From Prolixibacteraceae bacterium (lineage in GTDB: Bacteria > Bacteroidota > Bacteroidia > Bacteroidales > Prolixibacteraceae), in the NCBI GenBank assembly GCA_018648265.1, contig JABGRN010000019.1:1-64000 (forward strand): a stretch of 64,000 bases of DNA, given 5' to 3'. A model generated the notes under the pieces. That model was given only the letters and a program-made list of their open reading frames with translations, was not told where the DNA came from and did no database searches. A program made the translations under genes and the position numbers. Shown here in pieces: positions 20,498 through 58,287 of this stretch (position 1 is its first letter; every line of letters starts with the position of its first letter).

Positions 20498-21610
20498 ATG
20501 AAATGGAAATTAATAATTAGCATTCTTTTAGTTAGTTTCTTATTTAGCTGTAAAAACCAAATCGAGGTTCTACTTCAAAAAGAGGAAAAATCTATTTCTG
20601 TTGAACCGACAGAATTTGAATTTTCTGAAATTGCCTCGGGAACAATTCATTTCGAGTATTGCATTGAATCAGGGTTTATGGGGGAGTTGGTTTTACAAAA
20701 TCAAGATGAAATCGTTTTCGAATATCAAATCAACACCAATATAAAACTTTATCCCATAAATAATGAAATAGCAAAATGGCAACAAATTTCTGTTTCCTGG
20801 AATTTAGAGAGCTCAAGTTTATCTGTTTTTATTAATGAACAACTTCAAACGACCCGATTAGTTAATTCAGAAAAAATTACTTCAATTAATAAACTCATCA
20901 TTAAGCCGCGAAAAAGTGATAGTAAAAATAAAATTAGAATTCGAAATGTAACATACACCGGGGAAAATTATCAACTACCAGAACGATTGAAGATAGTTGC
21001 TTTTGGCAATTCTACAACAGCATTTCGAAATACAATTACAGGTGTTTATTCCCAACGACTTTCCGAACTTTTGTTAGAAGAAGGAATTCCAAATGTGGTT
21101 TTTAATGAAGGGATTGGAGGGAGTCATACCGGCTATTTGAGTGACAATAATCGCCATCGGGTTAAACACGCCCTTGACCGCTTGGAGTCACATGTTTTGG
21201 TTCATCAGCCAGACATTACCATTATTTGTTTTGGTATTAACGACAGTTGGTTTGATGGTAATAATGATAAACCGAGAATCCCGATATTTGAATTTGAAAA
21301 AAATCTAAAATATATAATGGATACCCTTCAGAAAGCGGGAAGTCAAATAATACTTATGACTCCAAATGCATTAGGGAAAAGACATGAAAAATGGCGCTAT
21401 GATAATACAGAAAAGTATGTAGAAATTATTAGGAAATTAGCTGTTGAAAATGAAATAGCATTAATTGACCAGTGGCAGATTTTTGAAGAATATGTAATTT
21501 CAGGGAAAGATATAGACGGTTTTCTTCTTGATGGGACTCACCCAAATGATAAATGGCATGAAGAATTAGCAGAACTTCTTGCGGAAAAAATAAAATCAAT
21601 TACAAAATAA
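20498..21610 (+). CDS. SGNH/GDSL-type esterase lipoprotein with N-terminal beta-sandwich
   Basis: This 370-residue predicted lipoprotein has its lipobox cysteine at position 18 (LVSFLFSC). Residues about 35-158 form a concanavalin/LamG-like beta domain (WQQISVSWNLESSSLSVFIN) resembling the C-terminal domains of the two BNR proteins at 35278 and 37163. Residues 165-370 are an SGNH hydrolase. Block I is FGNST with nucleophile Ser172 (GNS instead of GDS). A glycine-rich block II (GIGGSH) follows, then block III GIND with Asn248, and block V DGTHPND with Asp345 and His348. Such enzymes commonly remove acetyl groups from glycans. Next to sialidases, O-deacetylation of sialic acid is a reasonable inference. 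It is the first gene of the 20498-39885 run, 6 bases before the next gene. Confidence 0.85.
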   Translation: MKWKLIISILLVSFLFSCKNQIEVLLQKEEKSISVEPTEFEFSEIASGTIHFEYCIESGFMGELVLQNQDEIVFEYQINTNIKLYPINNEIAKWQQISVSWNLESSSLSVFINEQLQTTRLVNSEKITSINKLIIKPRKSDSKNKIRIRNVTYTGENYQLPERLKIVAFGNSTTAFRNTITGVYSQRLSELLLEEGIPNVVFNEGIGGSHTGYLSDNNRHRVKHALDRLESHVLVHQPDITIICFGINDSWFDGNNDKPRIPIFEFEKNLKYIMDTLQKAGSQIILMTPNALGKRHEKWRYDNTEKYVEIIRKLAVENEIALIDQWQIFEEYVISGKDIDGFLLDGTHPNDKWHEELAELLAEKIKSITK

Positions 21611-21616
21611 GAGATA

Positions 21617-24424
21617 ATGAAAAGAGACATTATAATATTTTTGATTTTATATTTGTTTTGCTCTGCTAGAGTTTCAGCACAATTCGAATCTCTGGAGCAA
21701 AATTCCAAAGTTGAAAAACCTTTTTTTTATTCGAAAATAATTTTCGACCCACTAAACGATGGAATGGGATACCACAATTATCGGATTCCTTCTTTGCTGG
21801 TAACGCAAAAAGGAACCATTTTGGCTGTTATGGAAGGTCGTGAAGACATGAACCACGACCATGCTAAAAACGATATTGTACTTAAACGAAGTACCAACAA
21901 TGGTGAAACCTGGAGCAAGCCAACGATAATTCAGGAAGCCGGTGATAATGTGGTAATGAACCCGGTTATGGTTCAGGCTTTGGATGGAACTATTATTCTT
22001 ACTTACATTTATTTCCCCAGGAAACTACACAGTGGCGATGGTTCACACGGTGTAAAACAAGTTGATACAGGATTAAAAGGAGATAAAATTGAACGGCTTT
22101 TTGTGATAAAAAGCACCGACGAAGGTTTAAATTGGTCGGAGCCTCAGGAAATTACAGTGGTCTCAAAAAGCAGTAAAAATACCATTGTATCAATTTGCGG
22201 TCCCGGCGTTGGAATAACGCTTACAAGGGGCAAATACAAGGGCAGGGTAATCATTCCCATGTCAGAATCGTTTCAGAAAAAAGGAAAAAGACATGATACT
22301 AATTATGCTTTGTATTCCGATGACAATGGAAAATCGTGGAAACATGGTAAATTTTTTCCACCAACTACAGATGGCAACTTTGGTGGAAACGAAATTCAAA
22401 TGATACAACTGGAAGGTGGAAAAGTATTGGCATCAGTTCGTTCAAAAGGATTTCGATTAATTACAAATTCAGATGACGGCGGTAAAACCTGGTCGCCTTT
22501 GAAAGTACAAAATGATTTGGTGGATACAGGTTGTATGTCGCCGCTGCTTCGTTACCAATGGAAAACGGATAAAGAACCCGGAGTTTTGATACACATTGGA
22601 GTTACCGGGCGCCCTGATGGAAGAAAAAGAGGAAAATCAATTATTGCCTTAAGTTATGACGATGGTGAGAATTGGTCTGTTCAACGACCTTTATACAATA
22701 ACAACTTCGATTATTCGTCACTGGCAATTCTTCCTGATGGTTCAATTGGAATGTTAGCCGAGTATGATTTTAACGGTGAAAGAGCTGATATAAGATTTGC
22801 CAAATTTAATTTGGATTGGATAAAATCTAACAAGAATAAACTCACGGTTTCAAAAAAGGTAGTTCAGCCCAATGTTTTTTTTAAAACGCATCCAAAGCAT
22901 GTTATTCCAGCAAACATGGTTATTCAAAAGTTTGAAGTTGAATTGGAAGCCAATCTAACAACAGGAAACAAAGACATTTCTTTTCAATATGAATTAGTTG
23001 AAAAACAGGGCGAGGCAAAGTTGCTAAATACAGAGAACCTCAATAAATTTTCTTCTTCAAATCAAAACACATTTTTAGCGGATTGGTATGGGCAAAATAT
23101 TGTTAAAGTAACAGCCAAAAACAATGCAGACAAAATTGTAGCAATAAAACTCGATACCATTTTTGTTCATTTTTCGCACACACAATTGGCTGGTGGAGAT
23201 ATTAGCAAACTGGATAAAACTTACAAAGGAAAAGAATACATCACCGGAAAAATTGAGGATGGTAAGTTGGTTTATCCTGGCATGCGATTTTTACCAACTG
23301 ATATTTCAAAAGGAGATACATTGTATGAAGGAACAAAATACGGTGCTTACGAAACCAAAGAACCTCGGTTGCTTGCTTTAAAAGATGGAACTTTAATTGC
23401 GTCGTACCATTTTCAGGTAAAAGGAAAAAACGATGCACCGCCAGGACTTACAGTGGTTTTAACCAGAAGTGTTGATGGTGGCAAAACATGGATAGACGAC
23501 CAAATTTTAATGCAAGATGTAAATGGCGTGGTGGCATACACGTCAATGGTTGAGTGGAAAGATGAGGTTCAATGTTACTTTTCTGGAGGACACCGTACCC
23601 ATCAACATGCAAATGCATATCAGGGTGTTTATCGGACTACTAGCAAAGATAAAGGTAAAACATGGAGTCCTCCTGAATTAATGAAGGAAATGACTGAATT
23701 GGTTACTCATGGTTCCGATACCATTTCTCCCAGTCAGTCACCTTCAACTAATGCTCTTTTTATTGTTGATATGGAATGGAAAGGTCAAAAAGGAGATGCC
23801 ATTTTAGTTCCGTTTTATGTAGACCCGGTTCATTTTCTGATTTCATTGGACGGAGGTGAATCATGGGATGTTTTTTATGATGTAGAAGATTATCCGGAAT
23901 ATATGGGAGAACTGAATGAAATATCGTGGGCACTGCTGGACAACAAAACTATTTATGTCGTTTCCAGAAGACAAAGTAGAATAGGGTATAAAAATGAAAT
24001 GATTTTTGACTTGGAAGGCAATCCATCCTTTTTAGCACAAACCCGTAAAAATCATAAAGCACGCCGATGTCATCAGGGAGCAGTGAAAATCACTTCAGGA
24101 AAATACAAAGGAAGAGTTGCGGTGGCAAGTAATTTCAGCGGAGACCGTGAAGAAGCAACCATTGCAATTTCCAAAACACCAAAAGCAGAAAAATTTAAAA
24201 CTAAATTTTTGACAACCAATGCTGCCTGGGGATATTGTCATATCGATTGGAATTCAAAACGAAATGGATTTGTACTAATCGGAGAATCAGAACCCTTTGA
24301 TGAAAACGAACAGGTAGTTCCAATGGACGGAGGCCCGGACAGAAATGAACGATTTTCTATCGAATGTTTTACATTTAGTCCGCAGTTTTATGAAACTTTG
24401 GTTGATGCTGATATTCATAAATAA
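21617..24424 (+). CDS. Two-propeller sialidase-family protein (GH33-like)
   Basis: This 935-residue exported protein (signal peptide to about residue 22) carries two sialidase-type beta-propellers. The first, residues about 40-410, has the first active-site arginine in YRIPSL (Arg56), Asp-boxes (STNNGETW, SDDNGKSW, SDDGGKTW, SYDDGENW) and a glutamate in NEIQMIQL. It also has arginines in VRSKG and GRKRGKS and a tyrosine in FDYSSL, so a full GH33-like set. The second, residues about 570-935, also keeps candidates for every key position: EPRLLAL, NEISWAL, VVSRRQ, GDREEATIAIS and AWGYCHIDW. An immunoglobulin-like linker (about 430-530) separates them. Both domains may be active. The predicted reaction is release of terminal sialic acid or a modified form. 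Confidence 0.85.
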   Translation: MKRDIIIFLILYLFCSARVSAQFESLEQNSKVEKPFFYSKIIFDPLNDGMGYHNYRIPSLLVTQKGTILAVMEGREDMNHDHAKNDIVLKRSTNNGETWSKPTIIQEAGDNVVMNPVMVQALDGTIILTYIYFPRKLHSGDGSHGVKQVDTGLKGDKIERLFVIKSTDEGLNWSEPQEITVVSKSSKNTIVSICGPGVGITLTRGKYKGRVIIPMSESFQKKGKRHDTNYALYSDDNGKSWKHGKFFPPTTDGNFGGNEIQMIQLEGGKVLASVRSKGFRLITNSDDGGKTWSPLKVQNDLVDTGCMSPLLRYQWKTDKEPGVLIHIGVTGRPDGRKRGKSIIALSYDDGENWSVQRPLYNNNFDYSSLAILPDGSIGMLAEYDFNGERADIRFAKFNLDWIKSNKNKLTVSKKVVQPNVFFKTHPKHVIPANMVIQKFEVELEANLTTGNKDISFQYELVEKQGEAKLLNTENLNKFSSSNQNTFLADWYGQNIVKVTAKNNADKIVAIKLDTIFVHFSHTQLAGGDISKLDKTYKGKEYITGKIEDGKLVYPGMRFLPTDISKGDTLYEGTKYGAYETKEPRLLALKDGTLIASYHFQVKGKNDAPPGLTVVLTRSVDGGKTWIDDQILMQDVNGVVAYTSMVEWKDEVQCYFSGGHRTHQHANAYQGVYRTTSKDKGKTWSPPELMKEMTELVTHGSDTISPSQSPSTNALFIVDMEWKGQKGDAILVPFYVDPVHFLISLDGGESWDVFYDVEDYPEYMGELNEISWALLDNKTIYVVSRRQSRIGYKNEMIFDLEGNPSFLAQTRKNHKARRCHQGAVKITSGKYKGRVAVASNFSGDREEATIAISKTPKAEKFKTKFLTTNAAWGYCHIDWNSKRNGFVLIGESEPFDENEQVVPMDGGPDRNERFSIECFTFSPQFYETLVDADIHK

Positions 24425-24483
24425 AGATTAGTGAAATGTTTCTTTTACGTATTTTTAGGAAATGTATTTAGGTGAATTTCATA

Positions 24484-25932
24484 ATGAAAAATTTAGAATT
24501 TATATTATCATTCTTCTTCCTTATTGCAATTTTTACCCATTGTACAAGCGAAGAAATTTACAAACAGCCAAATGTCATCATGATTTCCGTTGACGACATG
24601 AACGACTGGGTATCATGTCTCAACGATTTTCAAATGGTAGAAACACTCAATATGGACAGACTGGCAGAAATGGGTACGCTTTTTACCAATGCCTATTGTG
24701 CAGCACCACTTTGCAATCCTTCACGAACTGCAATTTTTACGGGAATGAGCCCGGCAAGGACAGGGATTGTAAATAATGCCCGTGATGAATCGGGAGCATG
24801 GAAATTACGTTGGCCCGAATTAAATACCATGCCTTTGTGGTTCAAAAAAAATGGATACACGGTAGTTGGCGGTGGAAAAACTTATCATGAAACTGTACCT
24901 GAATTATTTAATCCGCTTCACCAGTGGGATGAATATTTTCCGCTTGAAATTGAAAAGTTTAAACAAAAACCACATCTCGAAAAATTAGGAATAAAAGACA
25001 GGGAATGGTTTTCTGATATGCCTTCGCACCCTAACGGAAGCTGGGATTGGGGGCCATTTTTTTGCGAAGATTTTGATATGGGTGATGGAAAAACAACAAA
25101 GTGGGCAATGGATTTTTTGAGTAAGAATCATGATAAACCGTTTTTTTTAGCGCTCGGATTATTTCATCCACATCTGCCATTTTACGCCCCAAAAAAATAT
25201 TTTGATGCACTCCCTATGGATAGTGTAAAATTGCCAGAGGCTCCTGATTGGGATTTGGATGACTTACCCGAAGGTGCCAAAAAATTTATGCGGGCAGGTA
25301 ACGACAAAGGTTTTAAAATGGTCGCTGAAAGTGGTGAACTGAAAAATGCCATTCGCGCTTATCTGGCTTCCATTGCTTATGTTGATGCACTGGTTGGATA
25401 TTTACTCGAATCACTTGAAAATAGTAAATATGCTGAAAATACAATCATAATTTTCTGGAGCGATCACGGTTATCAGTTTGGGGAAAAAGAGCGGTTTTCA
25501 AAACGGTCGCTTTGGAGAAGGTCGTCGCGGGTTTTGTTTACCGTTAAAGCCCCTGGAATAACAAAACCTGAAATGATTTGTAAGCAGCCGGTTAGTTTAT
25601 TAGATATTTATCCTACACTGTTGGAATTGTGTAACCTACCTCAACCCGGTCATGAGTTGGATGGAATTTCATTGATACCTCAATTGGAAGATAATGAGAA
25701 AAAAAGGCGTCCTGCAGTTATCACCCATGAAATTGGTAATAACTCAGTTTGCGATGAGCATTGGACTTACATTCAGTATAAAGATGGTGGAGAAGAATTA
25801 TATGACCGGGATGTAGATTTAAATGAATGGAAAAATCTTGCTAAAGATTCTAAATACAAGGGCGTAATTAGTGAATTGAAAAAATGGACTCCTGAAAATC
25901 AGGGAATAAATTTGAAACCTGTTGACAAATAA
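24484..25932 (+). CDS. S1 formylglycine sulfatase, iduronate-2-sulfatase-like
   Basis: This 482-residue predicted lipoprotein (lipobox ending at Cys20, AIFTHC) starts at the ATG at 24484; a GTG four codons upstream is less likely. It belongs to the S1 sulfatase family. The metal-binding aspartates are in SVDDMNDW (Asp37 and Asp38). The active-site consensus CNPSRTAIFTG places the cysteine that becomes formylglycine at residue 77. The VDDMNDWVSCL opening resembles iduronate-2-sulfatase-like enzymes. A second metal site is suggested by WSDHGYQFGEK. The actual sulfate ester cannot be read from sequence. It is followed at 6 bases by a paralogue of the same subtype. A formylglycine-generating enzyme must be encoded elsewhere. 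Confidence 0.92.
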   Translation: MKNLEFILSFFFLIAIFTHCTSEEIYKQPNVIMISVDDMNDWVSCLNDFQMVETLNMDRLAEMGTLFTNAYCAAPLCNPSRTAIFTGMSPARTGIVNNARDESGAWKLRWPELNTMPLWFKKNGYTVVGGGKTYHETVPELFNPLHQWDEYFPLEIEKFKQKPHLEKLGIKDREWFSDMPSHPNGSWDWGPFFCEDFDMGDGKTTKWAMDFLSKNHDKPFFLALGLFHPHLPFYAPKKYFDALPMDSVKLPEAPDWDLDDLPEGAKKFMRAGNDKGFKMVAESGELKNAIRAYLASIAYVDALVGYLLESLENSKYAENTIIIFWSDHGYQFGEKERFSKRSLWRRSSRVLFTVKAPGITKPEMICKQPVSLLDIYPTLLELCNLPQPGHELDGISLIPQLEDNEKKRRPAVITHEIGNNSVCDEHWTYIQYKDGGEELYDRDVDLNEWKNLAKDSKYKGVISELKKWTPENQGINLKPVDK

Positions 25933-25938
25933 ATAGTA

Positions 25939-27597
25939 ATGAAAAATATATTTCAAATAGTAGTAATCTTTATGATTGCCTTTTCGAATGTAAGTTTGGC
26001 ACAAAACGAATCGCCAAATATTCTTTTTATAGGTGTTGATGACATGGCAGATTGGGTGGGGTGCATGGACGGATATCCTGGTAAAGTGCATACTCCAAAC
26101 ATCGATCGCTTGGCAAACCGCGGAATTCTTTTTACCAATGCACATTGTACTTCACCAATTTGTGGTCCTTCAAGAGCGGCTATTTTAACAGGGTTGCGAC
26201 CCGAAACAAGCGGAGTTTATCACAACCTTGGTCATTACAATGATTATACCGATGCAGTTGGTTTTCCGCTTTATTTCAGACAGAATGGCTACACGTCGCT
26301 TGGGGCAGGTAAAATAAACCACGGTTACGGTCGTGAGATTTATGAAAATTGGGATGATTATGGCCCCGATACAAAGCACATTGGAGGCCCTGTGAATGAA
26401 GAGGAGATGAGTATCGAGGGAATGGATCCCACGAAATACATCAAACGTTTCGATGTAAACCTACCTCAAAATCCGGGAGCTTTGGTTGACCGTCCTTTTA
26501 ACAAATATTCAACATGGGATTATTGTGCATTCGATATTCCAGACAGTGAAATGCCCGATGGAAAAATTGCGCTTTGGGGAGTTGATCAGTTGCAAAAAAA
26601 ACACAACAAACCATTTTTAATCGCCTGTGGTTTTTACCGCCCGCACCAACCTTTTTATGTGCCAAAAAAATATTTCGATATGTATGATTTGGATGAGGTT
26701 GTTTTGCCGGAAACCATTGCCGGAGACATGTTTGACATCCCAACTCCGGGGATCAACCTGGCGCATGGTGCCTGGTCATCGGGTAAACACGAGACTTGCA
26801 TAAAGTACAACCAATGGAAACCATTGATTCGTGGTTATCTGGCAGCCATTTCGTTTGCCGACGCGCAGGTGGGAAAATTGGTGGATGCATTGGATTACGG
26901 CCAAAATGCTGAAAATACATGGATTGTTTTATTTAGCGACCACGGCTGGCATTTGGGAGAAAAAGAACATTGGGGGAAACACACACCCTGGCGAAATTCA
27001 ACGCGTGTTCCGTTTATTATTGTTCCCCCCCAAGGGAAAACAATAGGAGATTTTAATCCAGGCACAAAGTGTAACCAGCCTGTTAATTTGGTTGATATTT
27101 ACCCCACTTTGGTGGAAATGGCGAACTTTCCTCAAAAAGAAGGTTTATCGGGAAAAAGTTTAATTCCTTTGATTGAAAATCCTAACGCAGATTGGGATGA
27201 AGCAACCGTTACGACCATTGCCCATGGTAATCATGCCATTCATACTGAAAAATGGAGTTACATTCATTATTACGATGGTTCGGAGGAGTTGTATAATATT
27301 GAAGACGACCCTGAAGAGTGGGTGAATCTTGCAAATGTTCCGGAGCACAAACCATTAATTGAAAAACTAAAAAAATACATCCCCGAAGACAGGTACAAAC
27401 AATTTGTTCGGTACAACAATTGGAAAGTATGTTTTCTTCATTCGGGAGAAATGGAATTGTATGAAGTTACCGAAGGGGCTGGAATTGCGGAGCAGGTAAA
27501 TGTTGCAGAATCAAATTCTGACGTAGTTTATTTTATTCAGGATTATATGAAAAGAAACAATGTTTCAGCTACATTTTATAATATTGAAATAGAATAA
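25939..27597 (+). CDS. S1 formylglycine sulfatase, iduronate-2-sulfatase-like
   Basis: This 552-residue exported sulfatase has a Sec signal peptide (FMIAFSNVSLAQ) rather than a lipobox, so it is probably periplasmic. Metal ligands lie in VDDMADWVG. The modification motif CGPSRAAILTG has the formylglycine cysteine at residue 75. The later site FSDHGWHLGEKEHW and the LVDIYPTLVEM signature fit the family. It shares subtype with its upstream neighbour but is about 70 residues longer, with a C-terminal extension of unknown role (from YVRYNNWKVCFLHSG). The tail resembles no domain I know. The pair probably removes sulfate from related positions or linkages. Confidence 0.92.
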   Translation: MKNIFQIVVIFMIAFSNVSLAQNESPNILFIGVDDMADWVGCMDGYPGKVHTPNIDRLANRGILFTNAHCTSPICGPSRAAILTGLRPETSGVYHNLGHYNDYTDAVGFPLYFRQNGYTSLGAGKINHGYGREIYENWDDYGPDTKHIGGPVNEEEMSIEGMDPTKYIKRFDVNLPQNPGALVDRPFNKYSTWDYCAFDIPDSEMPDGKIALWGVDQLQKKHNKPFLIACGFYRPHQPFYVPKKYFDMYDLDEVVLPETIAGDMFDIPTPGINLAHGAWSSGKHETCIKYNQWKPLIRGYLAAISFADAQVGKLVDALDYGQNAENTWIVLFSDHGWHLGEKEHWGKHTPWRNSTRVPFIIVPPQGKTIGDFNPGTKCNQPVNLVDIYPTLVEMANFPQKEGLSGKSLIPLIENPNADWDEATVTTIAHGNHAIHTEKWSYIHYYDGSEELYNIEDDPEEWVNLANVPEHKPLIEKLKKYIPEDRYKQFVRYNNWKVCFLHSGEMELYEVTEGAGIAEQVNVAESNSDVVYFIQDYMKRNNVSATFYNIEIE

Positions 27598-27646
27598 AAC
27601 TGATTTTACTCAAATGTCAATTTAAACACAAATAAAAACTGATAAA

Positions 27647-30007: not shown

Positions 30008-30021
30008 AAATAAACTACCGG

Positions 30022-30067
30022 CATTTCCTCCCCGTCATCCTGAGCGAAGTCGAAGGAAGGGGAGGTG
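30022..30067. repeat. REP-like repeat element
   Basis: This intergenic stretch contains CCTGAGCGAAGTCGAAGG inside a larger inverted repeat (CCTCCCC and GGGGAGG). The core is a widespread interspersed palindromic repeat type in Bacteroidota and other bacteria. Diverged relatives occur near 40995-41020 and 41039-41064. Confidence 0.55.
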
Positions 30068-30087
30068 CCAAAGCCGAAGGGGTAAAT

Positions 30088-33188: not shown

Positions 33189-33220
33189 ACATTGTGACAC
33201 TAAAAATAATTAAAATAGAG

Positions 33221-42971: not shown

Positions 42972-42978
42972 AAAAGGG

Positions 42979-44815: not shown

Positions 44816-44876
44816 TCTTTGGTGAAAAAGAATATTTATAGCTCAATTAAAATGGAGCAAAACAATACTATAAGTG

Positions 44877-48679: not shown

Positions 48680-48746
48680 AATATTCTCCTGATTTGTAAG
48701 ATTCGTTACCCATGAAATTTCATATTTTGTGTCTATTTTGTATTAA

Positions 48747-50129: not shown

Positions 50130-50220
50130 AGATTGCAGAAAAGATGAATACAAAACTAAGGGAGTGGCAAAGCTCTTGTGAAAGAAGTGCCACAGGATTT
50201 GATTATTGAGAATGACGATT

Positions 50221-51255
50221 ATGAATAACATACGAAAACCAAATAAACAGCGAATATTTGACGCAATTAACCATGTGGAAACAGGGGAAATACCGATTTT
50301 AGAGATCGATCCGGATATGTCATTGGTGAACCAAATCTTAAAGAAAAAGCTTCCAATGCACCTCCATTCATTTGAATTGGAGGTAGAAGATAATATTGAG
50401 CTCAATAAAAGAATGGGCAACGACCTTACTTTTTTTGGTCATGTTTGGCGTGTAGGTAGAAAGGAATTTTCAGATGATGACGGACGAATTCATTATATCG
50501 ACGGAACAATAAAAACGAGAGAACAGTTAAAAGATGTTTGGTTTCCTTCGCTCGACAAACTTGAAAAACGTCTTGAAGACCATTGCAAGAAAGTGGATGG
50601 AACCGGGATGGGAATCTTATGTAAAGCGCAGACACCTGCCTTTACCACTATGAGTGCAATGGGTTATAGTGATTTCCTTTTGAATACTATAATGGATCCC
50701 GATTTTACTTATGACTTTATAAATATGATTCATGAGTATTGCATGAAAGAGTTGGAAGTATTTCTTAAGTATCCCATTGATATAGTGCAAGTTTCCAGTG
50801 GTCTGGTAACCAATACAGGACCAATGGTAAGCTACAAAGACCTGGAGCCGTTGGAATTTAAATTTATTGAAGAGGAGATGCAGCTGGTAAAATCGATGGG
50901 TAAAAAGGTACATTTTCATATTGATGGGAGAGTGGATGATATGATTCCCCGGTTTTTGGAGATGGGAACTGATATTTTGAATCCCATTGACCTATGCGCC
51001 GGGAATCAGGATGTTTTTGCCATAAAAGAGAAATATGGTAGTCAAATCACCATCTCAGGAAATATTGATATTGAAGCTGTATTAAAAGACGGAACACCTG
51101 AACAAGTCAAGGAAAATGTGACGATGCATATTGACAAATTGAAAAAAGGCGGTGGTTATATTGTTTCTTCTTGTCACAACCTGCATGAACTTGTACCAGT
51201 TGAAAATTTTTACGCAATGCGGGATACAGTTTTAAATTATAAAAATGAGCCATAA
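50221..51255 (+). CDS. Second uroporphyrinogen decarboxylase-family protein
   Basis: This protein of about 344 residues uses the ATG at 50221 (MNNIRKPNKQRIFDAIN); ATG 50212 is an alternative. It is cytoplasmic. Family features are the RIFDAINHVETGEIPI start, the VHFHIDGRVDDMIPRF segment (the equivalent of HSCG in the other copy, here with Asp-Gly) and the GGGYIVSSCHNLHELVP C-terminal motif. It is clearly diverged from the 47615 protein, especially at the putative metal-binding region, so the two probably do different steps. Its last 11 bases overlap the start of the sialate esterase gene, which implies translational coupling and a shared role. Confidence 0.82.
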   Translation: MNNIRKPNKQRIFDAINHVETGEIPILEIDPDMSLVNQILKKKLPMHLHSFELEVEDNIELNKRMGNDLTFFGHVWRVGRKEFSDDDGRIHYIDGTIKTREQLKDVWFPSLDKLEKRLEDHCKKVDGTGMGILCKAQTPAFTTMSAMGYSDFLLNTIMDPDFTYDFINMIHEYCMKELEVFLKYPIDIVQVSSGLVTNTGPMVSYKDLEPLEFKFIEEEMQLVKSMGKKVHFHIDGRVDDMIPRFLEMGTDILNPIDLCAGNQDVFAIKEKYGSQITISGNIDIEAVLKDGTPEQVKENVTMHIDKLKKGGGYIVSSCHNLHELVPVENFYAMRDTVLNYKNEP

Positions 51256-53341
51256 AGCAAAAACATACATTTTATTTCTGGTTGCGTTCCTATTGGCATC
51301 TACTGTTTATAGTCAAGCGTCTGTTAAAATCAGGATTGCCTGTGTTGGAAATTCAGTAACATTTGGAGCTGGCATTGAAAATTGCGATGTAAATAGCTAC
51401 CCGGCTCAATTGCAAAAAATGTTGGGTGAAAAATATGAGGTCGCCAATTTTGGAAAAAGTGGCGCAACGCTGTTAACCAAAGGTCATCGCCCTTATATTA
51501 AGCAAAAAGAATTTCAGGAGGCATTAAAATTTAGCCCACAAATTGTAATTATTCATTTGGGATTAAACGATACCGACCCACGAAACTGGCCAAATTACCG
51601 CGACGATTTTGTTAGTGATTTTTCGGCATTAATAGATTCGTTTCGAATGCTGCCGACAAAATCAAAAGTTTGGATTTGTAAAATGACACCGATTTTTCAT
51701 GGTCACCCAAGGTTTAAATCTGGAACACGCGGTTGGTTTTGGCAAATTCAGGAAAAAATAGAGGTTGTTGCAAATGGGAAAAACACAGAATTGATTGATT
51801 TGCACACTCCGTTATATTCAAGGCCTGATTTGTTTCCAGACAATCTTCATCCAAATAGAGAAGGAGCACTGATACTTGCAAAAACCGTCTATTCCGAAAT
51901 AACTGGTGATTTTGGTGGGCTTCAAATTCCGGATGGTTTTAATGGTAATATGGTTTTACAGCGTGGAGTTGCAATTCCTGTTTATGGCAATGCAAATTCC
52001 GGCGATAAAATAACTATCGATTTTGATGGTGACATCCAAACAGCAACAACTGATAAACATGGAAATTGGAAAGTTGAATTTCCTGCTAAACTTGCAGGTG
52101 GTCCATATTCAATAAAAATAGAAAACAGAGATTCATCGATAACGATTGAAAATATTCTTGTTGGAGATTTGTGGCTTTGTTCCGGACAGTCGAATATGTC
52201 TTTTGCACTTAAATCAACAGCTCACGCCAAAGAAGAAATTCCTAAAGCCAACTATCCTGAAATTCGGCTTTACAATATGAAAACTGTTGCCTGGGGGAGT
52301 AATTATAAATGGTCAAAAGAGGAGCTTCAAAAAACAAATAACCTTGAATTTTTCTCTGGTAAATGGGAAACTTGTACGCCTGAAACGGCAAACGATTTTT
52401 CAGCAATTGCTTATCATTTTGGACGAAAACTTTACGAGAAGACTGGTGTGCCAATTGGCTTAATTCACAATTCAAAAGGTGGTTCACCAACCGAATCATG
52501 GATTGACCGCAAAACTTTAGAATTTCATCCTCAATTGGTTGATGTTTTAATTAATTGGGAAAAGAACGATTTTGTACCGGCATTTTGCAAAGAGCGGGCT
52601 GCCTTTAATATTCAGGAATCAAAAAATCCGAAACAGAGGCATCCTTTTCATCCGGCCTATTTATATGAAGCAGGTATTGAACCGTTAAAGGGAATGCCAA
52701 TAAAAGGAGTAATCTGGTATCAGGGCGAATCAAACGCGCATAATGTAGAATTTCACGAGCAACTATTTCCTGTATTAATTAAAAGTTGGCGGCATATTTG
52801 GGGTGAAAACTTACCCTTCTATTTTGTGCAATTATCAAGTATTAATCGTCCCAGTTGGAGTCATTTTCGCGATTCTCAGCGCCGGTTAGCCTTACAAATT
52901 CCAAATTGTGAAATGGCTGTTTCAAGCGATCTGGGGCATCCTACTAATGTTCATCCAAAACAGAAAAAGGAAGTTGGTGAAAGATTGGCTTTGGTTGCCT
53001 TGAATCAGTTATACAACAAAAATATTCCGTGTCAAGGACCAAAAGTTAAAGCGATTAAATTCAGTAATTATAAAATAATAATTGAATACACTTTTGCAGA
53101 GGGATTGAAAACCAGCAATGGAAAGTCGCTTCGTTCTTTTGAAGTGGCAGGTGAAAATGAGTTATATAAACCGGCTAAAACAAAAATAATTGAAAATAGA
53201 ATTGAAATTTGGTCAGAAGAGGTTCCAATTCCAAAATATTTTCGATATGGATATCAACCATATACCGATGCAAATTTAGTTAACGAAACTGGACTACCCG
53301 CATCAACTTATACTACAGAATTTGAAAAAATGGATTTTTAG
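51245..53341 (+). CDS. nanS: Two-domain sialate O-acetylesterase (SGNH plus SIAE domains)
   Basis: This 698-residue exported esterase has a signal peptide (residues 1-23). Residues about 28-215 form an SGNH domain: GNSVTFG with Ser37, GLNDTDPR with the block III asparagine, and DNLHPNREG with the His/Asp pair. Residues about 225-690 are a sialate O-acetylesterase domain: CSGQSNM with Ser316, IWYQGESNA, and a histidine-containing LGHPTNVHP. This two-catalytic-domain layout matches the NanS esterase of Tannerella and Bacteroides, which removes O-acetyl groups from sialic acids to let sialidases work. It overlaps the URO-D-like gene by 11 bases and leads into the lyase and transporter genes. Confidence 0.9.
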   Translation: MSHKAKTYILFLVAFLLASTVYSQASVKIRIACVGNSVTFGAGIENCDVNSYPAQLQKMLGEKYEVANFGKSGATLLTKGHRPYIKQKEFQEALKFSPQIVIIHLGLNDTDPRNWPNYRDDFVSDFSALIDSFRMLPTKSKVWICKMTPIFHGHPRFKSGTRGWFWQIQEKIEVVANGKNTELIDLHTPLYSRPDLFPDNLHPNREGALILAKTVYSEITGDFGGLQIPDGFNGNMVLQRGVAIPVYGNANSGDKITIDFDGDIQTATTDKHGNWKVEFPAKLAGGPYSIKIENRDSSITIENILVGDLWLCSGQSNMSFALKSTAHAKEEIPKANYPEIRLYNMKTVAWGSNYKWSKEELQKTNNLEFFSGKWETCTPETANDFSAIAYHFGRKLYEKTGVPIGLIHNSKGGSPTESWIDRKTLEFHPQLVDVLINWEKNDFVPAFCKERAAFNIQESKNPKQRHPFHPAYLYEAGIEPLKGMPIKGVIWYQGESNAHNVEFHEQLFPVLIKSWRHIWGENLPFYFVQLSSINRPSWSHFRDSQRRLALQIPNCEMAVSSDLGHPTNVHPKQKKEVGERLALVALNQLYNKNIPCQGPKVKAIKFSNYKIIIEYTFAEGLKTSNGKSLRSFEVAGENELYKPAKTKIIENRIEIWSEEVPIPKYFRYGYQPYTDANLVNETGLPASTYTTEFEKMDF

Positions 53342-53475
53342 ATGTTGAGATTCAAGATAGAAAGATTAAAAATAATAATATATAAATGATTTAATAATTA
53401 GGAAGATGAAACATATGGTTAGCACGGATTTACTTCCGACTTCCATCTTCGGTTTTCCGACTTATCTTTAAAAGA

Positions 53476-54387
53476 ATGAAAAAAATTAACGGATACGTTG
53501 CAGCACCTTTTACCCCAATGAAAGAGAATGGGGATATTAACCTGGATTTTATTCCGGAATATGCTGATTTTTTAATTAGGAATGGACTGGATGGAGCTTT
53601 TATATGCGGCAGCTCTGGTGAAGGAGCATTACTTACCCGCGAAGAGAGAATGGCAGTTGCCGAAGCATGGGTTGACGCTGCCGGGGATAATTTAAAAGTT
53701 ATTGTGCACACTGGTGGAACCAATTTGACAGATCAAAAAACGCTGGCACAACATACACAAAAAATTGGTGCTTTTGGAGTAGCTGCTATGGCCCCCGCAT
53801 TTTTACCTCCACGCCGGAATGAAGAATTTGTTGCTTATTGTAAAGAAATAGCTTCTGCTGCTCCTGAGTTATCATTCTATTACTATCACATTCCACCGCT
53901 TAATGGTTTCAATATGTCTGTTGTTGAACTGTTGAAAGCTGTAGATAAAGAGATTCCAAATTTTGTAGGGGTGAAATACACACATGATAATTTATACGAA
54001 TTTGATCAGTGTAAATATGTGGCCAACGGAAAATTCGAAATGCTTCACGGACTTGATGAGACTTACCTTTCTGCACTGGCATATGGCTTTTCTGGCGGGG
54101 TTGGGGGTACATACAATCACTGTTTTTCCTTGTTTCGGGAAATGAAAGAAGCCTATGCTGCAGGCGACCATATCAAGTGCCGGGAATTACAACATAAGTC
54201 CCATCTTTTTATTAATGTATTGGGAATGTTCCGTGGAAACATAGTATGCGGTAAGCGGATTATGAAGTTTATGGGTATTGACTGCGGACCCAACAGGTTA
54301 CCTCTTCAAACTATCTCAGTTCAGGAAGAAATTTCAATGAAAAAAGAATTGGAAACCATCGGATTTTTTGATTACTGTAATAAATAA
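53476..54387 (+). CDS. nanA: N-acetylneuraminate lyase (dihydrodipicolinate synthase family)
   Basis: This 303-residue cytoplasmic aldolase splits N-acetylneuraminate into ManNAc and pyruvate. The substrate carboxylate-binding GSSGEG lies at 45-50. The catalytic tyrosine in YYYHIPP (Tyr137) and the Schiff-base lysine in VGVKYTH (Lys167) are at the positions seen in E. coli lyase. GLDETYLSALAYG and GGVGGTYN are typical of the lyase rather than of dihydrodipicolinate synthase. The family contains related 2-keto-3-deoxy sugar aldolases, so activity on other sialic acids is possible. It sits between the sialate esterase and the transporter fusion, which supports the assignment. Confidence 0.92.
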   Translation: MKKINGYVAAPFTPMKENGDINLDFIPEYADFLIRNGLDGAFICGSSGEGALLTREERMAVAEAWVDAAGDNLKVIVHTGGTNLTDQKTLAQHTQKIGAFGVAAMAPAFLPPRRNEEFVAYCKEIASAAPELSFYYYHIPPLNGFNMSVVELLKAVDKEIPNFVGVKYTHDNLYEFDQCKYVANGKFEMLHGLDETYLSALAYGFSGGVGGTYNHCFSLFREMKEAYAAGDHIKCRELQHKSHLFINVLGMFRGNIVCGKRIMKFMGIDCGPNRLPLQTISVQEEISMKKELETIGFFDYCNK

Positions 54388-54409
54388 TATTCCCAATAAA
54401 TTTACGACC

Positions 54410-57091
54410 ATGAACTTAAGACTCCGTTTTTTTATACTGATTTTTACACTTCCTTTTTTAGGATTTACGCAATCGGATTACCAAAATAATTTCACATGGC
54501 AAGAGAGTGTAGAAATACCTCCACCGGCTGGCGCTGAAAAACAGCATGGACTTGCATCGCCTTTTGTTGGAACTTCTGGCGACGTGGTGATTGTAGCTGG
54601 CGGCTGCAATTTTCCAAATGTTCCGGTGGTTGATGGAGGTACAAAAAAGTATTACAACGATGCTTTCGTTTTGGTTGAAGCAGAAGGAAAACCGCGCTGG
54701 CTGTTCGGAATGAAAATTCCGAATGAAACTGCGTATGGAGCTTCGGTAAATGTTCTGGATGGTTTGTTATGTATTGGTGGAAGTAACAACGATGAAATTT
54801 TCAACACTGTTTATCTTTTAAAGTGGAACAAAAAGAAATCTGAATTGGAGATTGAAAATTGGCCGGAGCTACCTTTCCCTGTTACTCAAATGGGGGCAAC
54901 ATTGGTCGATAATATTGTTTATGTAGTAGGCGGAAAAACCGATGGAAAATTAGCAAACACATTTCTGTCGCTAGATATTTCCAAAAGAGGAACGGATGAA
55001 TTTCAATGGAATGTATTAGATGATTTTCCGGGTGTGGCACGATTGCAGCCGGTTGTTGTAACTCAAAATGCTGCGGAAGAAAAGCACCTTTTCCTTTTTA
55101 GTGGCTCTAGTTTTCCGGATAACCAGGCCGAACCGAGTATTACTACCGATGGATTGGAGTACAACCCAAAATTAAATGAATGGACAAAAATTGCTAAAAT
55201 TGACCCCAACGGTTATCAACCTTTTTCGTTACACGGAGCAAGTGGTTTACCTTTAGGAATGAACCATGTATTGTTTGTTGGAGGTGTTAATTATGACAAA
55301 TTTTATGATGCCTGGAAACAAGAACGTATAGGAAAATTGGCGATAGAAATTGGCGATACGGCAGCAGTTCATCAATTTAAAACCTGGGAAAAAGAGTACT
55401 TATCGCACGAACCGGTCTGGTATAAATTTAACAAAGAGGTTTTGGTTTATCATACGCTTACCAATAGTTGGACAGTAGGCGATGAGTATCCATTTGTTGC
55501 ACCCGCAGGGGCAAAAATGGTTGCGTGGAAAGATGGCTGGTTGGTAATTAACGGTGAGACCATGCCTGGCGTTCGTTCTGCAAAAGTATATTATGGTGAA
55601 TTAAAAGCAAATCCGAAATTTGGCTGGTTAAATTGGTTGCTGTTAATATCATATTTAGGGGGAATGCTTTATCTCGGGTATTTCTTTATGAAACGTGAAA
55701 ACGGCACCGAAGATTTTTTCAAAGGTGGAGGTCGAATTCCTTGGTGGGCAGCCGGAATGAGTATTTTCGCAACGATGTTAAGTGCCATCACTTTTATGGC
55801 AATTCCGGCAAAAGCATTTGCCACCGACTGGAAATATTTTCCAATGGCTATTGCTATATTAATAATGGCTTTTCCAGTAGTAAAATACTATTTGCCATTT
55901 TTCCGGAGATTGAACGTAACAACTGCTTACGAATATCTCGAAAGACGATTCAATTACACCACACGGTTTTTAGCAAGTTTTCTCTTTATTATTTTTATGA
56001 TTGCCAGAATGGCGTTGGTGTTGTTTTTACCATCGCTGGCATTAACTACAGTAACCGGAATTGATATTTACACTTGTATTGTATTGATGGGAGTGATAAC
56101 CATCATTTATTGTACAATGGGCGGGGTAGAAGCTGTTGTTTGGGGCGATGTTATCCAGGGATTTGTATTACTTAGTGGAGCAGTAGTGGCAGTATTTTTT
56201 CTGATTTCAGGAACCGAAGGAGGAATGGGAAAATTGATAGATATTTCTATGGATAATCATAAGTTTACCATGTTCGATTTTGCATTGAGCTGGAAAAGTG
56301 CCACAATTTGGGTAATCCTTTTAGGCGGATTAGCCAACAACCTGATTTCTTATAGTGCCGACCAGACTGTAATTCAACGGTATTTAACAACAAAAGATGA
56401 AAAATCAGCTGCAAAAGGAATTATATTGAATGGAGTTTTAGCTGTGATTGTTTCTGTGATTTTTTATTTTATAGGAACAGCATTGTATGTCTATTATAAA
56501 ACACAACCCGAAGAGTTGAATTTTGTAATGCAAAATACAGATTCCATTTTCCCCCATTTTATTATGTCAAAAATGCCTATTGGGGTAGCAGGATTGCTAA
56601 TCGCAGCAATTTTCTCTGCAACTATGTCAACGGTTTCATCTAATGTAAACTCCTTATCAACGGCATTTACTTCTGACTTCTACTGTCACTTTTTCCCGGA
56701 TTCAACCGATAAAAATCAATTGTCGGTAGCACGTTGGTCAGGAATTGTTTTTGGAGGAATTGGAGTTGGTTTTGCATTGTTAATGGCAACATTAAATATT
56801 CTGTCGTTATTCGATTATTTCAACTATATTTTGGGATTACTGGCAAGCGGATTGGGTGCATTGTTTCTTATGGGAATTTTCTTTCCACGAATTAACGGAG
56901 AAAGTGCACTGATTGGATTTGTTCTTGGAACCGGATTCTTATTTTTAGTGAAAGCGCAAACCGATATTTCATTCTTATTATTTGGTTTTATAGGGATGGC
57001 TGCAACTCTGTTTTTTGGATTAATATTTAGCTTCTTCTTTAAAAATGAAAAGGAAATTAAAGGTTTAACCTGGAAGACCATTGAAAAATAA
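54410..57091 (+). CDS. Fusion of a kelch mutarotase (NanM-like) and a sodium/solute symporter
   Basis: The chosen start is the ATG at 54410, giving an 893-residue protein with a signal-like N-terminus (LRFFILIFTLPFLGFTQ). Residues about 30-380 are a kelch-type propeller of the sialic acid mutarotase kind (VIVAGGCNFPNVPV, LCIGGSNNDEIF, VVGGKTDGKL, NHVLFVGGVNYDKFYDA, DGWLVINGETMPGVRS). Residues about 403-893 are a sodium/solute symporter with some 13 hydrophobic helices (FKGGGRIPWWAAGMSIFATM, ADQTVIQRYLTTKDEKSAAK). The periplasmic propeller would convert the alpha anomer released by sialidases and hand it to the symporter. It replaces the MFS-type NanT found in several characterised Bacteroides loci. 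Confidence 0.9.
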   Translation: MNLRLRFFILIFTLPFLGFTQSDYQNNFTWQESVEIPPPAGAEKQHGLASPFVGTSGDVVIVAGGCNFPNVPVVDGGTKKYYNDAFVLVEAEGKPRWLFGMKIPNETAYGASVNVLDGLLCIGGSNNDEIFNTVYLLKWNKKKSELEIENWPELPFPVTQMGATLVDNIVYVVGGKTDGKLANTFLSLDISKRGTDEFQWNVLDDFPGVARLQPVVVTQNAAEEKHLFLFSGSSFPDNQAEPSITTDGLEYNPKLNEWTKIAKIDPNGYQPFSLHGASGLPLGMNHVLFVGGVNYDKFYDAWKQERIGKLAIEIGDTAAVHQFKTWEKEYLSHEPVWYKFNKEVLVYHTLTNSWTVGDEYPFVAPAGAKMVAWKDGWLVINGETMPGVRSAKVYYGELKANPKFGWLNWLLLISYLGGMLYLGYFFMKRENGTEDFFKGGGRIPWWAAGMSIFATMLSAITFMAIPAKAFATDWKYFPMAIAILIMAFPVVKYYLPFFRRLNVTTAYEYLERRFNYTTRFLASFLFIIFMIARMALVLFLPSLALTTVTGIDIYTCIVLMGVITIIYCTMGGVEAVVWGDVIQGFVLLSGAVVAVFFLISGTEGGMGKLIDISMDNHKFTMFDFALSWKSATIWVILLGGLANNLISYSADQTVIQRYLTTKDEKSAAKGIILNGVLAVIVSVIFYFIGTALYVYYKTQPEELNFVMQNTDSIFPHFIMSKMPIGVAGLLIAAIFSATMSTVSSNVNSLSTAFTSDFYCHFFPDSTDKNQLSVARWSGIVFGGIGVGFALLMATLNILSLFDYFNYILGLLASGLGALFLMGIFFPRINGESALIGFVLGTGFLFLVKAQTDISFLLFGFIGMAATLFFGLIFSFFFKNEKEIKGLTWKTIEK

Positions 57092-57108
57092 ACAGAATTA
57101 GAATTATT

Positions 57109-58287
57109 ATGAATAAACAAACCATACAGAATTACCTGGAAACCTACAAAAAAGGTCTCCTCGAAAATATCATTCCATTTTGGACAAAACACTCTATTGA
57201 CTGGGAAGATGGCGGTTTTAACTTTTGTCTTGACCGTGATGGAACGGTTATCGACACCGACAAAGGAGTTTGGCAAACCGGTCGTTTTACATGGATGATT
57301 TTGACTTTGTACAACGAGGTGGAACAAAAAGAGGAGTGGCTAAAAATTGGAAAGCACGGCATCGATTTCCTCGAAAAACATTGTTACGATGAAAACGGTA
57401 AAATGTATTTTATTGTGGATAAACAAGGGGAGCCAATTCGTATGCGGAGGTATGTTTTTTCAGAATCTTTTGCAGCAATTGCCTACGCAGCTTACTATAA
57501 GGCAACTGGAATTGAAGAATACAAAGAAAAGGCAAAAGAGGCTTTTGATACTTTTTTGCGATACAATACAACACCTGGTTTAATTGCACCTAAATTCACC
57601 GATAACCGTAAAATGCGTGGGATGGGTGGACCGATGATAGGAATTGTTACTGCTCAGGAACTACGTAAAAATCTGAACGACAATTCTTACACAACTCAAA
57701 TTACTGAATGGATAAATGAAATTCAGAAGTATTTTCTCAATCATGAATATAAAGCTGTAATGGAAGCAGTTGGTCTCAATGGCGAACTCGTTGATCATTT
57801 TGATGGGCGAACTTTAAATCCCGGACATGCCATTGAAGGTGCATGGTTTATTTTGCAAGAGGCAAAACTTAGAAATAACAACCCCGAATTAATTAAACTC
57901 GGCACAACCATGCTCGATTGGATGTGGGAAATTGGTTGGGACAAAGAATACGGTGGAATGCTTTACTTCAAAGATGTAAAAGGCTTGCCCATTCAGGAAT
58001 ATTGGCACGACATGAAATTCTGGTGGCCACATAACGAAACAGTAATTGCCACTTTAATGGCCTACGAACTAACCGGCGACAAAAAATACGCCGAAATGCA
58101 TAAGCAAGTTCACGATTGGACATTCAAACATTTTCCCGACCAAGAACATGGCGAATGGTACGGCTACCTCCACCGCGACGGACGAATTTCAGTTCCACTA
58201 AAAGGAAACATCTGGAAAGGGCCTTTTCATATTCCTAGAATGTATTTAATGGCTTGGAAGAGTTGTGAGCGGATGTCTCTAATGTAA
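57109..58287 (+). CDS. nanE: N-acylglucosamine 2-epimerase (AGE/renin-binding-protein type)
   Basis: This 392-residue cytoplasmic (alpha/alpha)6-barrel enzyme interconverts ManNAc and GlcNAc. Family features are GVWQTGRFTWMI, RRYVFSESFAAIAYAAYY, the catalytic histidines in NPGHAIEGAW and WWPHNETV, and the C-terminal LKGNIWKGPFHIPRMY. The length is normal. In Bacteroides and Tannerella, this unphosphorylated epimerase follows the lyase and feeds GlcNAc to a ROK kinase; no such kinase is in the window. It is 17 bases after the transporter fusion and closes the sialic acid module. A 1486-base stretch without protein genes follows. Confidence 0.92.
   Translation: MNKQTIQNYLETYKKGLLENIIPFWTKHSIDWEDGGFNFCLDRDGTVIDTDKGVWQTGRFTWMILTLYNEVEQKEEWLKIGKHGIDFLEKHCYDENGKMYFIVDKQGEPIRMRRYVFSESFAAIAYAAYYKATGIEEYKEKAKEAFDTFLRYNTTPGLIAPKFTDNRKMRGMGGPMIGIVTAQELRKNLNDNSYTTQITEWINEIQKYFLNHEYKAVMEAVGLNGELVDHFDGRTLNPGHAIEGAWFILQEAKLRNNNPELIKLGTTMLDWMWEIGWDKEYGGMLYFKDVKGLPIQEYWHDMKFWWPHNETVIATLMAYELTGDKKYAEMHKQVHDWTFKHFPDQEHGEWYGYLHRDGRISVPLKGNIWKGPFHIPRMYLMAWKSCERMSLM

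Follow-up and report, generated by a model that had tools for sequence, protein, structure and literature searches.

The DNA analyzed here, referred to below as the window, is a 64,000-nucleotide stretch from a Prolixibacteraceae bacterium that makes up almost the whole of a 64,640-bp contig (C155) of a 5.58-Mb genome (G000); our view of its flanks ends with the contig. Positions 20,498 to 58,287 hold a gene cluster in which every annotated gene except one lies on the plus strand. Open reading frame (ORF) calls and Pfam, followed by NCBIfam and Protein Data Bank (PDB) searches and BLAST between loci, identified seven BNR/sialidase-fold genes, seven S1 sulfatases, two esterases, a DHDPS-family lyase, a fusion of the mutarotase NanM to an SSF sodium symporter, and a GlcNAc 2-epimerase (Table 1). 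From 44,874 onward the intergenic distances are -20 to 134 bp, which points to an operon-like arrangement. A preliminary interpretation of this locus (the sequence-only reading) had counted these genes correctly, one sulfatase being split between frames, and had named their families, but it overlooked four others, which encode a Gfo/Idh/MocA oxidoreductase, a PhyH dioxygenase, and the UroD-superfamily proteins UROD1 and UROD2. The nearly one-for-one alternation of sulfatases and sialidases that it described holds only loosely. The UroD genes are the most unusual part of the locus and make it a candidate pathway for sialic acids that are both sulfated and O-methylated.

Judging from the genes, the sugar predicted to be catabolized is clearly sialic acid: the locus encodes five GH33-type sialidases, a sialate O-acetylesterase-like protein (SASA), the lyase NanA, the NanM-SSF fusion, and the epimerase AGE. 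The genome contains 16 BNR_2 genes (from 20 match rows, with two genes below the Pfam cut-off), and the presence of 7 of them within this 38 kb indicates that their clustering is not due to chance. The catalytic roles of an arginine triad, an aspartate, a glutamate, and a tyrosine are established for GH33 enzymes. When the domains were aligned with MAFFT, all three arginines (the RIP arginine among them), the acid/base aspartate region, the glutamate, and the tyrosine were present in SIA1, SIA2, SIA3, SIA6, and SIA7 (5/7), with the set located in the N-terminal domain of SIA1. The RIP arginine and the tyrosine are absent from SIA4 and SIA5, and SIA1 and SIA2 each have a second half that is likewise noncanonical. 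SIA7 has bacterial sialidases as its closest solved structures, and the closest solved proteins to NanA are N-acetylneuraminate lyases (NAL), with the NCBIfam NAL models scoring below cut-off. The parts of a nan locus are all present, namely, an NAL-type lyase, an epimerase, a transporter, a mutarotase, and sialidases with GH33 catalytic residues, and it is nearly certain that the locus serves sialoglycan catabolism.

Table 1. Genes of the sialidase-sulfatase locus and selected upstream genes in the window
Gene and annotation	Position	Strand	Evidence
GDSL1, GDSL esterase	20498..21610	+	PF13472, E 1.7e-19
SIA1, GH33-type sialidase domain and second BNR-like half	21617..24424	+	BNR_2 4e-34; 70% to Puteibacter g177569
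SULF1, S1 sulfatase, CNPSR	24472..25932	+	PF00884; best solved 6hhm; 45% to two G661 genes
SULF2, S1 sulfatase, CGPSR	25939..27597	+	PF00884; 53% to G661
SIA2, GH33-type sialidase and second BNR-like half	27647..30007	+	BNR_2 2e-34, two stretches
SULF3, S1 sulfatase, CSPSR	30088..31632	+	PF00884; 60% Puteibacter, 42% G661; best solved 3ed4, E 8e-65
SULF4, S1 sulfatase, S1_8/SGSH-like	31674..33188	+	Best solved 9bb9 'S1_8A' and 4mhx
SIA3, GH33-type sialidase with BNR_assoc_N	33158..35269	+	PF14873 and BNR_3
SIA4, sialidase-fold, without GH33 RIP arginine and tyrosine	35278..37041	+	BNR_2 1e-25
SIA5, sialidase-fold, without GH33 RIP arginine and tyrosine	37163..38887	+	Pfam, alignment, G661 BLAST
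Gfo/Idh/MocA oxidoreductase	38899..39885	+	PF22725/PF01408; 46% homologue in G661 locus
PhyH dioxygenase	39886..40767	-	PF05721
SIA6, GH33-type sialidase	41817..42971	+	BNR_2
SULF5, S1 sulfatase in two overlapping frames, CCPTR	42952..44752	+	First frame best solved 7all
SIA7, GH33-type sialidase	44874..46004	+	BNR_2 1.9e-36
SULF6, S1 sulfatase, S1_16-like	46014..47567	+	Best solved 6ust, 9fo1; 72%, 68% to two G661 genes
UROD1, UroD superfamily, candidate methyltransferase I, His-Cys-His	47615..48679	+	PF01208
SULF7, S1 sulfatase, CSPTR	48747..50129	+	Best solved 6bia, E 9e-51, also 3ed4
UROD2, UroD superfamily, candidate methyltransferase I, His-Asp-His	50206..51255	+	PF01208
GDSL and SASA (sialate O-acetylesterase-like) esterase	51245..53341	+	PF13472, PF03629
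NanA, N-acetylneuraminate lyase	53476..54387	+	PF00701; best solved 6arh/5afd NAL
NanM mutarotase-SSF sodium symporter fusion (NANMT)	54368..57091	+	PF24996 and PF00474; TIGR03548, TIGR00813 above cut-off
GlcNAc/ManNAc 2-epimerase (AGE)	57109..58287	+	PF07221; AcylGsamEpipAGE 394 bits, below cut-off 600
Hybrid two-component regulator (HTCS)	1824..6197	-	Pfam; 47% homologue within Puteibacter locus
SusC/SusD pair	6319..11183	+	Pfam

Three long loci were compared: the window, a locus of Puteibacter caeruleilacunae JC036 (G115:C184, 171.8-218.6 kb; L007-L010), which belongs to the same family (Prolixibacteraceae, Bacteroidota, in the NCBI taxonomy), and one on contig C135 of G661, a genome from another family. 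Genes of the Puteibacter locus were labeled by BLAST against the window proteins and their domains by Pfam; percentages below relate to the window homologues. The Puteibacter locus includes a SIA2-like gene, an HTCS homologue (47%), SIA1 (70%), three more sialidase-like genes, a GH20 gene, SULF3 (60%), and a YhcH-type gene. UROD1 (74%) is followed by genes for a corrinoid protein, an MtaA-like protein with a thioredoxin domain, CobW, and a Met_synt_B12 activation domain and by SULF7 (58%), after which come a creatininase-family gene, UROD2 (70%), SASA (57%), NANA (78%), NANMT (68%), and AGE (75%); a separate opposite-strand run at ~192-199 kb carries GH38, MFS, and another UroD gene. The G661 locus contains SIA7 (48%), two SULF6 genes (72 and 68%), SULF5 (60%), GH20, two SULF1-like genes, two SIA5 genes (65%), SULF2 (53%), SULF3 (42%), SULF7 (62%), Gfo (46%), an HpcH/HpaI aldolase gene, and SIA2- and SIA3-like genes, and its nan part comprises UROD2 (57%), SASA (52%), NANA (55%), NANMT (58%), a further UroD gene, AGE (62%), and a creatininase-family gene. 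The two SIA5 copies indicate that this noncanonical type is conserved. The grouping of sialidase, sulfatase, and nanA genes noted in the sequence-only reading thus recurs in both loci and, in part, in G048 and G057. The run UROD1-SULF7-UROD2-SASA-nanA-nanM/T-AGE is complete in the window and is present with insertions in Puteibacter; G661 has SULF7, UROD2, SASA, nanA, nanM/T, and AGE with a different UroD gene, and the G048 and G057 fragments hold parts of the same UROD1-to-AGE run. The cluster is a real, conserved functional unit.

The AGE family acts on N-acyl mannosamine. This fact, the kinship of NanA with N-acetylneuraminate lyases, the NanM fusion, the SASA domain, and the YhcH-type gene in G048 and Puteibacter make it very improbable that the substrate is instead a nonsialic ulosonic acid of algae (Kdn, Kdo, or Dha) cleaved by the GH33-like enzymes. 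What speaks for such a substrate is the existence of an enzyme that releases Kdn and not Neu5Ac (PMC10017367), the methylated Kdn described for lancelet in PMC6994554, and the HpcH/HpaI aldolase gene within the G661 locus.

The sequence-only reading placed sulfate on the sialic acid, or in direct reach of it, largely because the cluster lacked backbone glycosidases. Indeed, none of the window ORFs searched belonged to GH2, GH16, GH20, GH29, or GH95, but the argument fails on comparison, since GH20 genes lie inside both of the other long loci and a GH2 gene lies beyond the G661 locus on the opposite strand. These genes indicate that the system reaches beneath the sialic acid cap. GH20 is also matched four times elsewhere in the host genome, on other contigs, with the best match near a SusC/SusD-like pair (judged by eye). 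A sulfated sialic acid is still a possible substrate, with its main argument weakened. All of these glycosidases fit an ordinary sulfated sialomucin or ganglioside locus in which sialidases uncap the glycan, sulfatases desulfate Gal, GalNAc, or GlcNAc, and GH20 and GH2 enzymes finish the breakdown, the UroD proteins serving an O-methylated hexose or being unrelated. We regard this explanation as a serious, if doubtful, contender; the sulfatases bear on it in both directions.

The formylglycine motif C-x-P-[ST]-R and PF00884 are present in all seven sulfatases, in SULF5 over two frames. The G661 homologue of SULF5 (60%) is an uninterrupted protein of 562 amino acids; the frame split may reflect either mutation or assembly error. 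Sulfatase classes are given informally here, after the closest solved structures, which were sought for SULF1 and SULF3 to SULF7, and do not stand for SulfAtlas subfamilies. SULF4 is nearest to S1_8A and SGSH structures, and SULF6 is nearest to sulfatases titled S1_16 and GalNAc-6-sulfate sulfatase. The first frame of SULF5 is closest to 7all, which we take to be an S1_4 enzyme, and SULF1 is closest to 6hhm, presumably an S1_7 enzyme. The structural neighbors of SULF4, SULF5, and SULF6 point to Gal, GalNAc, or GlcN sulfates for some of the sulfatases, so that SULF6, perhaps along with SULF5 and SULF4, probably serves sulfated Gal, GalNAc, or HexNAc below the cap. A sialic acid role for all seven was considered and rejected, because SULF4, SULF6, and probably SULF5 resemble other classes. 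That the S1_4 and S1_16 classes act on 3S-Gal and 4S-Gal/GalNAc (PMC10154612) favors a sialomucin or ganglioside substrate.

SULF3 and SULF7, in contrast, have only distant solved relatives, and they are the two sulfatase types common to all three long loci. In Puteibacter (171.8-218.6 kb), BLAST with the window proteins found no sulfatases accompanying the sialidases except these two. SULF7 lies inside the nan run, between UROD1 and UROD2 in the window, Puteibacter, and G048. Both facts are compatible with sulfate on or next to sialic acid, and they count against an ordinary sialomucin or ganglioside locus, as does the location of UROD1, UROD2, and SULF7 in the nan run rather than with GH20. 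The sulfatases are a conserved part of the sialic acid locus, and on these grounds the leading candidates for desulfation of sialic acid itself are SULF7 and SULF3. The earlier placement of sulfate on sialic acid is therefore upheld in part, through SULF3 and SULF7, and probably does not extend to SULF4, SULF5, and SULF6, which resemble enzymes for Gal, GalNAc, or GlcN sulfates. We tentatively suggest, at somewhat less than even odds, that at least one sialate O-sulfatase is encoded in the locus; the authors of PMC10017367 (2023) knew of no microbial enzyme that desulfates sialic acid. SULF7 has matches at 1e-120 in 4 of the 295 genomes of the order, the host genome included.

UROD1 and UROD2 belong to the UroD superfamily by PF01208. 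According to PMC10418091, corrinoid demethylases of the O-, S-, and halogen types belong to this superfamily, His-Cys-Cys ligands distinguish S-methyltransferases, and in O-type enzymes carboxylates or noncoordinating residues take the place of one or both cysteines. We aligned 24 proteins chosen among the UroD matches, with MtaA-like and more distant ones excluded, so that ratios within the alignment are not representative of UroD proteins in general. In it, the histidine is invariant, the position two residues on holds 18 cysteines and 6 aspartates (one of them in UROD2), and the third ligand column is His in 21; only 1 of the 24 has His-Cys-Cys. The His-Asp-His set of UROD2 fits the O-type description, and the His-Cys-His set of UROD1 differs from His-Cys-Cys. 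By eye, which is how all signal peptides were assessed, neither protein has a signal peptide, and both should be cytoplasmic. At 1e-30, a search of 140 family genomes matched UROD2 in 3 besides the host, and a UROD1 query of 395 genomes of the phylum returned the host genome alone at 1e-60. A single-sequence PDB search with UROD1 gave CdmB as its sole match, at E 0.018. A nonexhaustive scan of genome contigs with two peptide patterns yielded five UROD1 relatives, and all four at 64% or above (L021, L022, L023, and L024) lie with sialidase-fold or nan genes. Among them, a 98% copy (matching the G048 contig) has a sialidase-like fragment, SULF7, UROD2, and SASA alongside, a 76% copy in a Labilibaculum metagenome-assembled genome (MAG) adjoins AGE and NANMT, and a 64% copy in a Prolixibacteraceae MAG lies with SusC/SusD-like genes and three sialidase-fold genes; the remaining one is the 74% Puteibacter gene. 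The fifth, a 24% relative in Lachnospiraceae, has an unrelated setting without sialidase or nan genes.

In Puteibacter the corrinoid protein gene (start at 203345) follows the end of UROD1 by one base. The partner lies on a separate contig in the host genome, where C67 carries a 67% corrinoid protein, a 60% MtaA-like protein, and homocysteine-methyltransferase-like and CobW genes, and also in G661. There, contig C140 (L061:3511-11704) encodes a corrinoid protein (65% to the Puteibacter one), a methyl-tetrahydrofolate:corrinoid methyltransferase, FTHFS, and a formate transporter (the last three above cut-off), an MTHFR-like protein, an AcsV-like reactivator (below cut-off), and a regulator 44% identical to the one adjoining UROD1 in Puteibacter. 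No UroD gene was found in the 16 of 38.6 kb fetched, in which the C140 cluster resembles methyl-group oxidation without a UroD-type methyltransferase I.

UROD1-family genes (1e-25) were found in 43 of the order's 295 genomes, corrinoid proteins (1e-35) in 44, and both in 30; in one of the underlying scans at most six candidates were scored per genome, making its per-genome counts lower bounds. A corrinoid protein is present in 14 of the 18 genomes with a UROD1-family match at E<=1e-100 versus 30 of the 277 others (odds ratio 29; Fisher p 7e-10, uncorrected for shared ancestry). The association persists when G000 and G661, the sources of the queries, are excluded (12/16 versus 30/277; p 2e-8; odds ratio 25). 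The sole corrinoid match of G551, G641, and G739 is part of a long frame; with only stand-alone corrinoid genes counted, the figures for this reduced set are 12/16 versus 27/277. Three of the four strict-threshold genomes without a corrinoid protein are 76-82% complete, and one is 92% complete. A UROD-family gene lies no more than 240 bp from a corrinoid gene in 10 genomes; in six of these the UROD match has an E value of 1e-69 or better, and the other four genes may be MtaA-like proteins. Taken together, the ligand columns that differ from His-Cys-Cys, the corrinoid adjacency, and the co-occurrence make it fairly probable that UROD1 and UROD2 are corrinoid methyltransferases. That the methyl group sits on sialic acid is a closer call, with the odds slightly against it.

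UroD genes also accompany other glycosidases. There are 10 UroD match rows in G000 and 19 in G661, some of them pieces of one gene. We surveyed 20 stretches over the two genomes, plus C127, by BLAST to our own reference set, by Pfam for 20 chosen neighbor proteins, and by eye for the rest. In G000, the neighbors include GH29, GH78-type, GH2 with SSF and SusC/D-like, MFS, and BNR genes; in G661, they include GH95 with sulfatase-like, GH31 with SSF-like, GH106, GH2, sulfatase, and FGGY-kinase genes, and one UroD gene lies between folD and a GH2-like gene. UroD genes near exo-glycosidases or sugar transporters were seen on G000 contigs C103, C118, C133, C56, and C127 and on G661 contigs C2, C156, C191, and C206 (L018, L100-L113), and no such neighbor was identified in other stretches (e.g., L108 and L115). 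Most of the UroD genes near exo-glycosidases have the H-x-C/D and C-terminal His motif. Such neighborhoods are expected if each UroD protein demethylates a sugar freed by its neighbors, and these proteins possibly form a family of sugar O-demethylases.

From gene content, conserved synteny, catalytic motifs, and corrinoid co-occurrence, we infer the substrates, export, methyl transfer, and order of steps as follows. Exported sialidases, sulfatases, and esterases, as signal peptides suggest, would strip decorations and release sialic acid; the NanM-symporter fusion would equilibrate and import it; and NanA and AGE would convert it to GlcNAc. In the cytoplasm, UROD1 and UROD2 would act as methyltransferase I, demethylating the sugar, for which an O-methylated sialic acid of echinoderm type is the likeliest candidate, and loading its O-methyl group onto the corrinoid protein, from which the methyl would pass to folate or homocysteine. 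PMC6994554 describes sulfation and methylation of sialic acids as common in echinoderms, whose sialic acids bear 8-O-methyl, 8-O-sulfate, and O-acetyl groups. The sulfatases, SASA, and the UroD genes match these sulfate, acetyl, and methyl decorations. We therefore favor, with a probability of about 0.48, the reading that the locus may serve the catabolism of sulfated, O-acetylated, and O-methylated, echinoderm-like sialoglycans with corrinoid O-demethylation. A more daring form of it is an anaerobic pathway reserved for sialic acids of echinoderm type, in which SULF7 and/or SULF3 desulfate sialic acid and UROD1 and UROD2 are corrinoid sugar O-demethylases from a large UroD branch, each paralogue demethylating the sugar (fucose, rhamnose, or sialic acid) of the neighboring exo-glycosidase into a shared corrinoid/folate route; this we consider plausible but less likely than not.

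Several points weigh against the echinoderm-type reading. The positions of methyl and sulfate on sialic acid are not fixed by any observation, SULF4 to SULF6 appear similar to enzymes for other sugars, the G661 locus showed no UROD1 orthologue, and the corrinoid partner in the host genome is on another contig. SULF7 homologues in G761 and G547 lie in fetched stretches of 30 kb and 9.6 kb, respectively, that contain no sialidase genes; a SASA homologue lies nearby in G761 and a GH92-like gene (by eye) in G547, showing that SULF7 is not restricted to sialidase loci. The co-occurrence tests ignore shared ancestry, and the third-column His is not among the O-demethylase ligands listed in PMC10418091. 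The top Foldseek matches of a UROD1 AlphaFold model built from 5 sequences (pLDDT 60) are UroD decarboxylases; the model places the superfamily only, cannot separate decarboxylase from methyltransferase, and is given little weight.

Other points would also fit UroD proteins that catalyze some other reaction in sialic acid or sugar breakdown, the Puteibacter corrinoid genes being a methyl-sulfur/selenium module adjacent by chance. The scores of UROD1 and UROD2 fall far below the NCBIfam methyltransferase cut-offs (the best model for UROD1, mtaA_cmuA, gives 56.5 bits against 235). Of the 43 UROD-family genomes counted under the looser threshold, 13 have no corrinoid protein, including the near-complete G562, G673, and G766 (one family), G736, G666, G738, and G772. 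Relatives of the Puteibacter MtaA-like protein occur in 55 of 140 family genomes versus 4 of 140 for UROD2, and no UROD1/2-type gene lies beside five MtaA-like modules fetched (G048, G062, G097, G106, and G127), so that the presence of this module in G000 proves little. Clusters of a corrinoid protein with MtaA-like proteins were assigned to methyl-sulfur/selenium metabolism by Kountz and Balskus (PMC10418091). We nevertheless think such a chance arrangement unlikely, given the odds ratio of 29 (25 without the source genomes), the adjacency in 10 genomes, the folD gene adjoining one paralogue, and the invariant histidine with Cys or Asp two residues on.

Upstream of the locus lie the HTCS, the SusC/SusD pair, and two FG-GAP proteins. 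The HTCS is possibly the regulator of the locus, and from its position the SusC/SusD pair is a possible outer-membrane uptake system for it. The PhyH-type Fe/2-oxoglutarate dioxygenase interrupts the plus-strand run from the opposite strand, and BLAST found no homologue of it in the Puteibacter or G661 long loci; for these reasons, a role as oxidative demethylase was set aside. A creatininase-family amidohydrolase gene (L009:9137-9901, L035:6321-7085, and L019:11212-11976) adjoins the Puteibacter and G661 sialidase loci and a SIA3 paralogue on C91 of the host genome; its product could be an N-deacylase. On C127 of the host genome, an ORF of 1150 amino acids (L018:30-3482, minus strand) has an N terminus that is Cas9-like by eye. 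An Rfam scan of the window at the gathering threshold and a tRNA scan found nothing.

The locus offers concrete candidate genes for sialic acid desulfation and O-demethylation. The oxidative P450 route of demethylation requires oxygen; the UroD branch beside fucosidases, rhamnosidases, and sialidases is a testable answer to how anaerobes could take O-methyl groups off glycans, possibly by B12-dependent removal of methyl groups from sugars. In the open-licence literature, which was the scope of our search to the exclusion of subscription papers, we found no paper on corrinoid demethylation of a polysaccharide or methylated sugar, and no title among the matches listed concerned bacterial O-demethylation of methylated sialic acid. 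The methyl ester case of Escherichia coli (PMC3658417) involves a carboxylate methyl, which differs from the O-methyl group considered here.

Bacteroides-type nan operons combine a lyase, an epimerase, and a transporter with a sialidase and a sialate O-acetylesterase. The locus resembles them in its lyase, GlcNAc 2-epimerase, mutarotase/symporter, sialidase, and acetylesterase and departs from them in its seven sulfatases, two UroD genes, several sialidases, and fusion of NanM to SSF. With the colonic mucin polysaccharide utilization loci of Bacteroides thetaiotaomicron, which contain S1_4, S1_11, S1_15, S1_16, and S1_20 sulfatases (PMC10154612), it shares S1 sulfatases for a host-type glycan and, in the orthologous loci, GH20; unlike them, the window has no backbone glycosidase, nan and UroD genes lie inside the cluster, and SULF3 and SULF7 have no close solved relatives. 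The genes in Puteibacter and on C67 are like the type 1 mlp clusters of Kountz and Balskus (PMC10418091) in gene content alone (corrinoid, MtaA-like, and activation proteins), but the Mlps described there nearly always have His-Cys-Cys, whereas UROD1 and UROD2 do not and lie in sialic acid loci. Like the corrinoid O-demethylases OdmB, VdmB, MtvB, and MtoB, and CdmB for chloromethane, UROD1 and UROD2 combine membership in the UroD superfamily with a putative corrinoid partner and, in G661, folate-linked acceptor genes. The substrates of UroD corrinoid demethylases given in PMC13222342 are methoxylated aromatics or haloalkanes; UROD1 and UROD2 differ from the enzymes named above in their sugar degradation context, in the weakness of the CdmB match, and in their His-Cys/Asp-His ligands.

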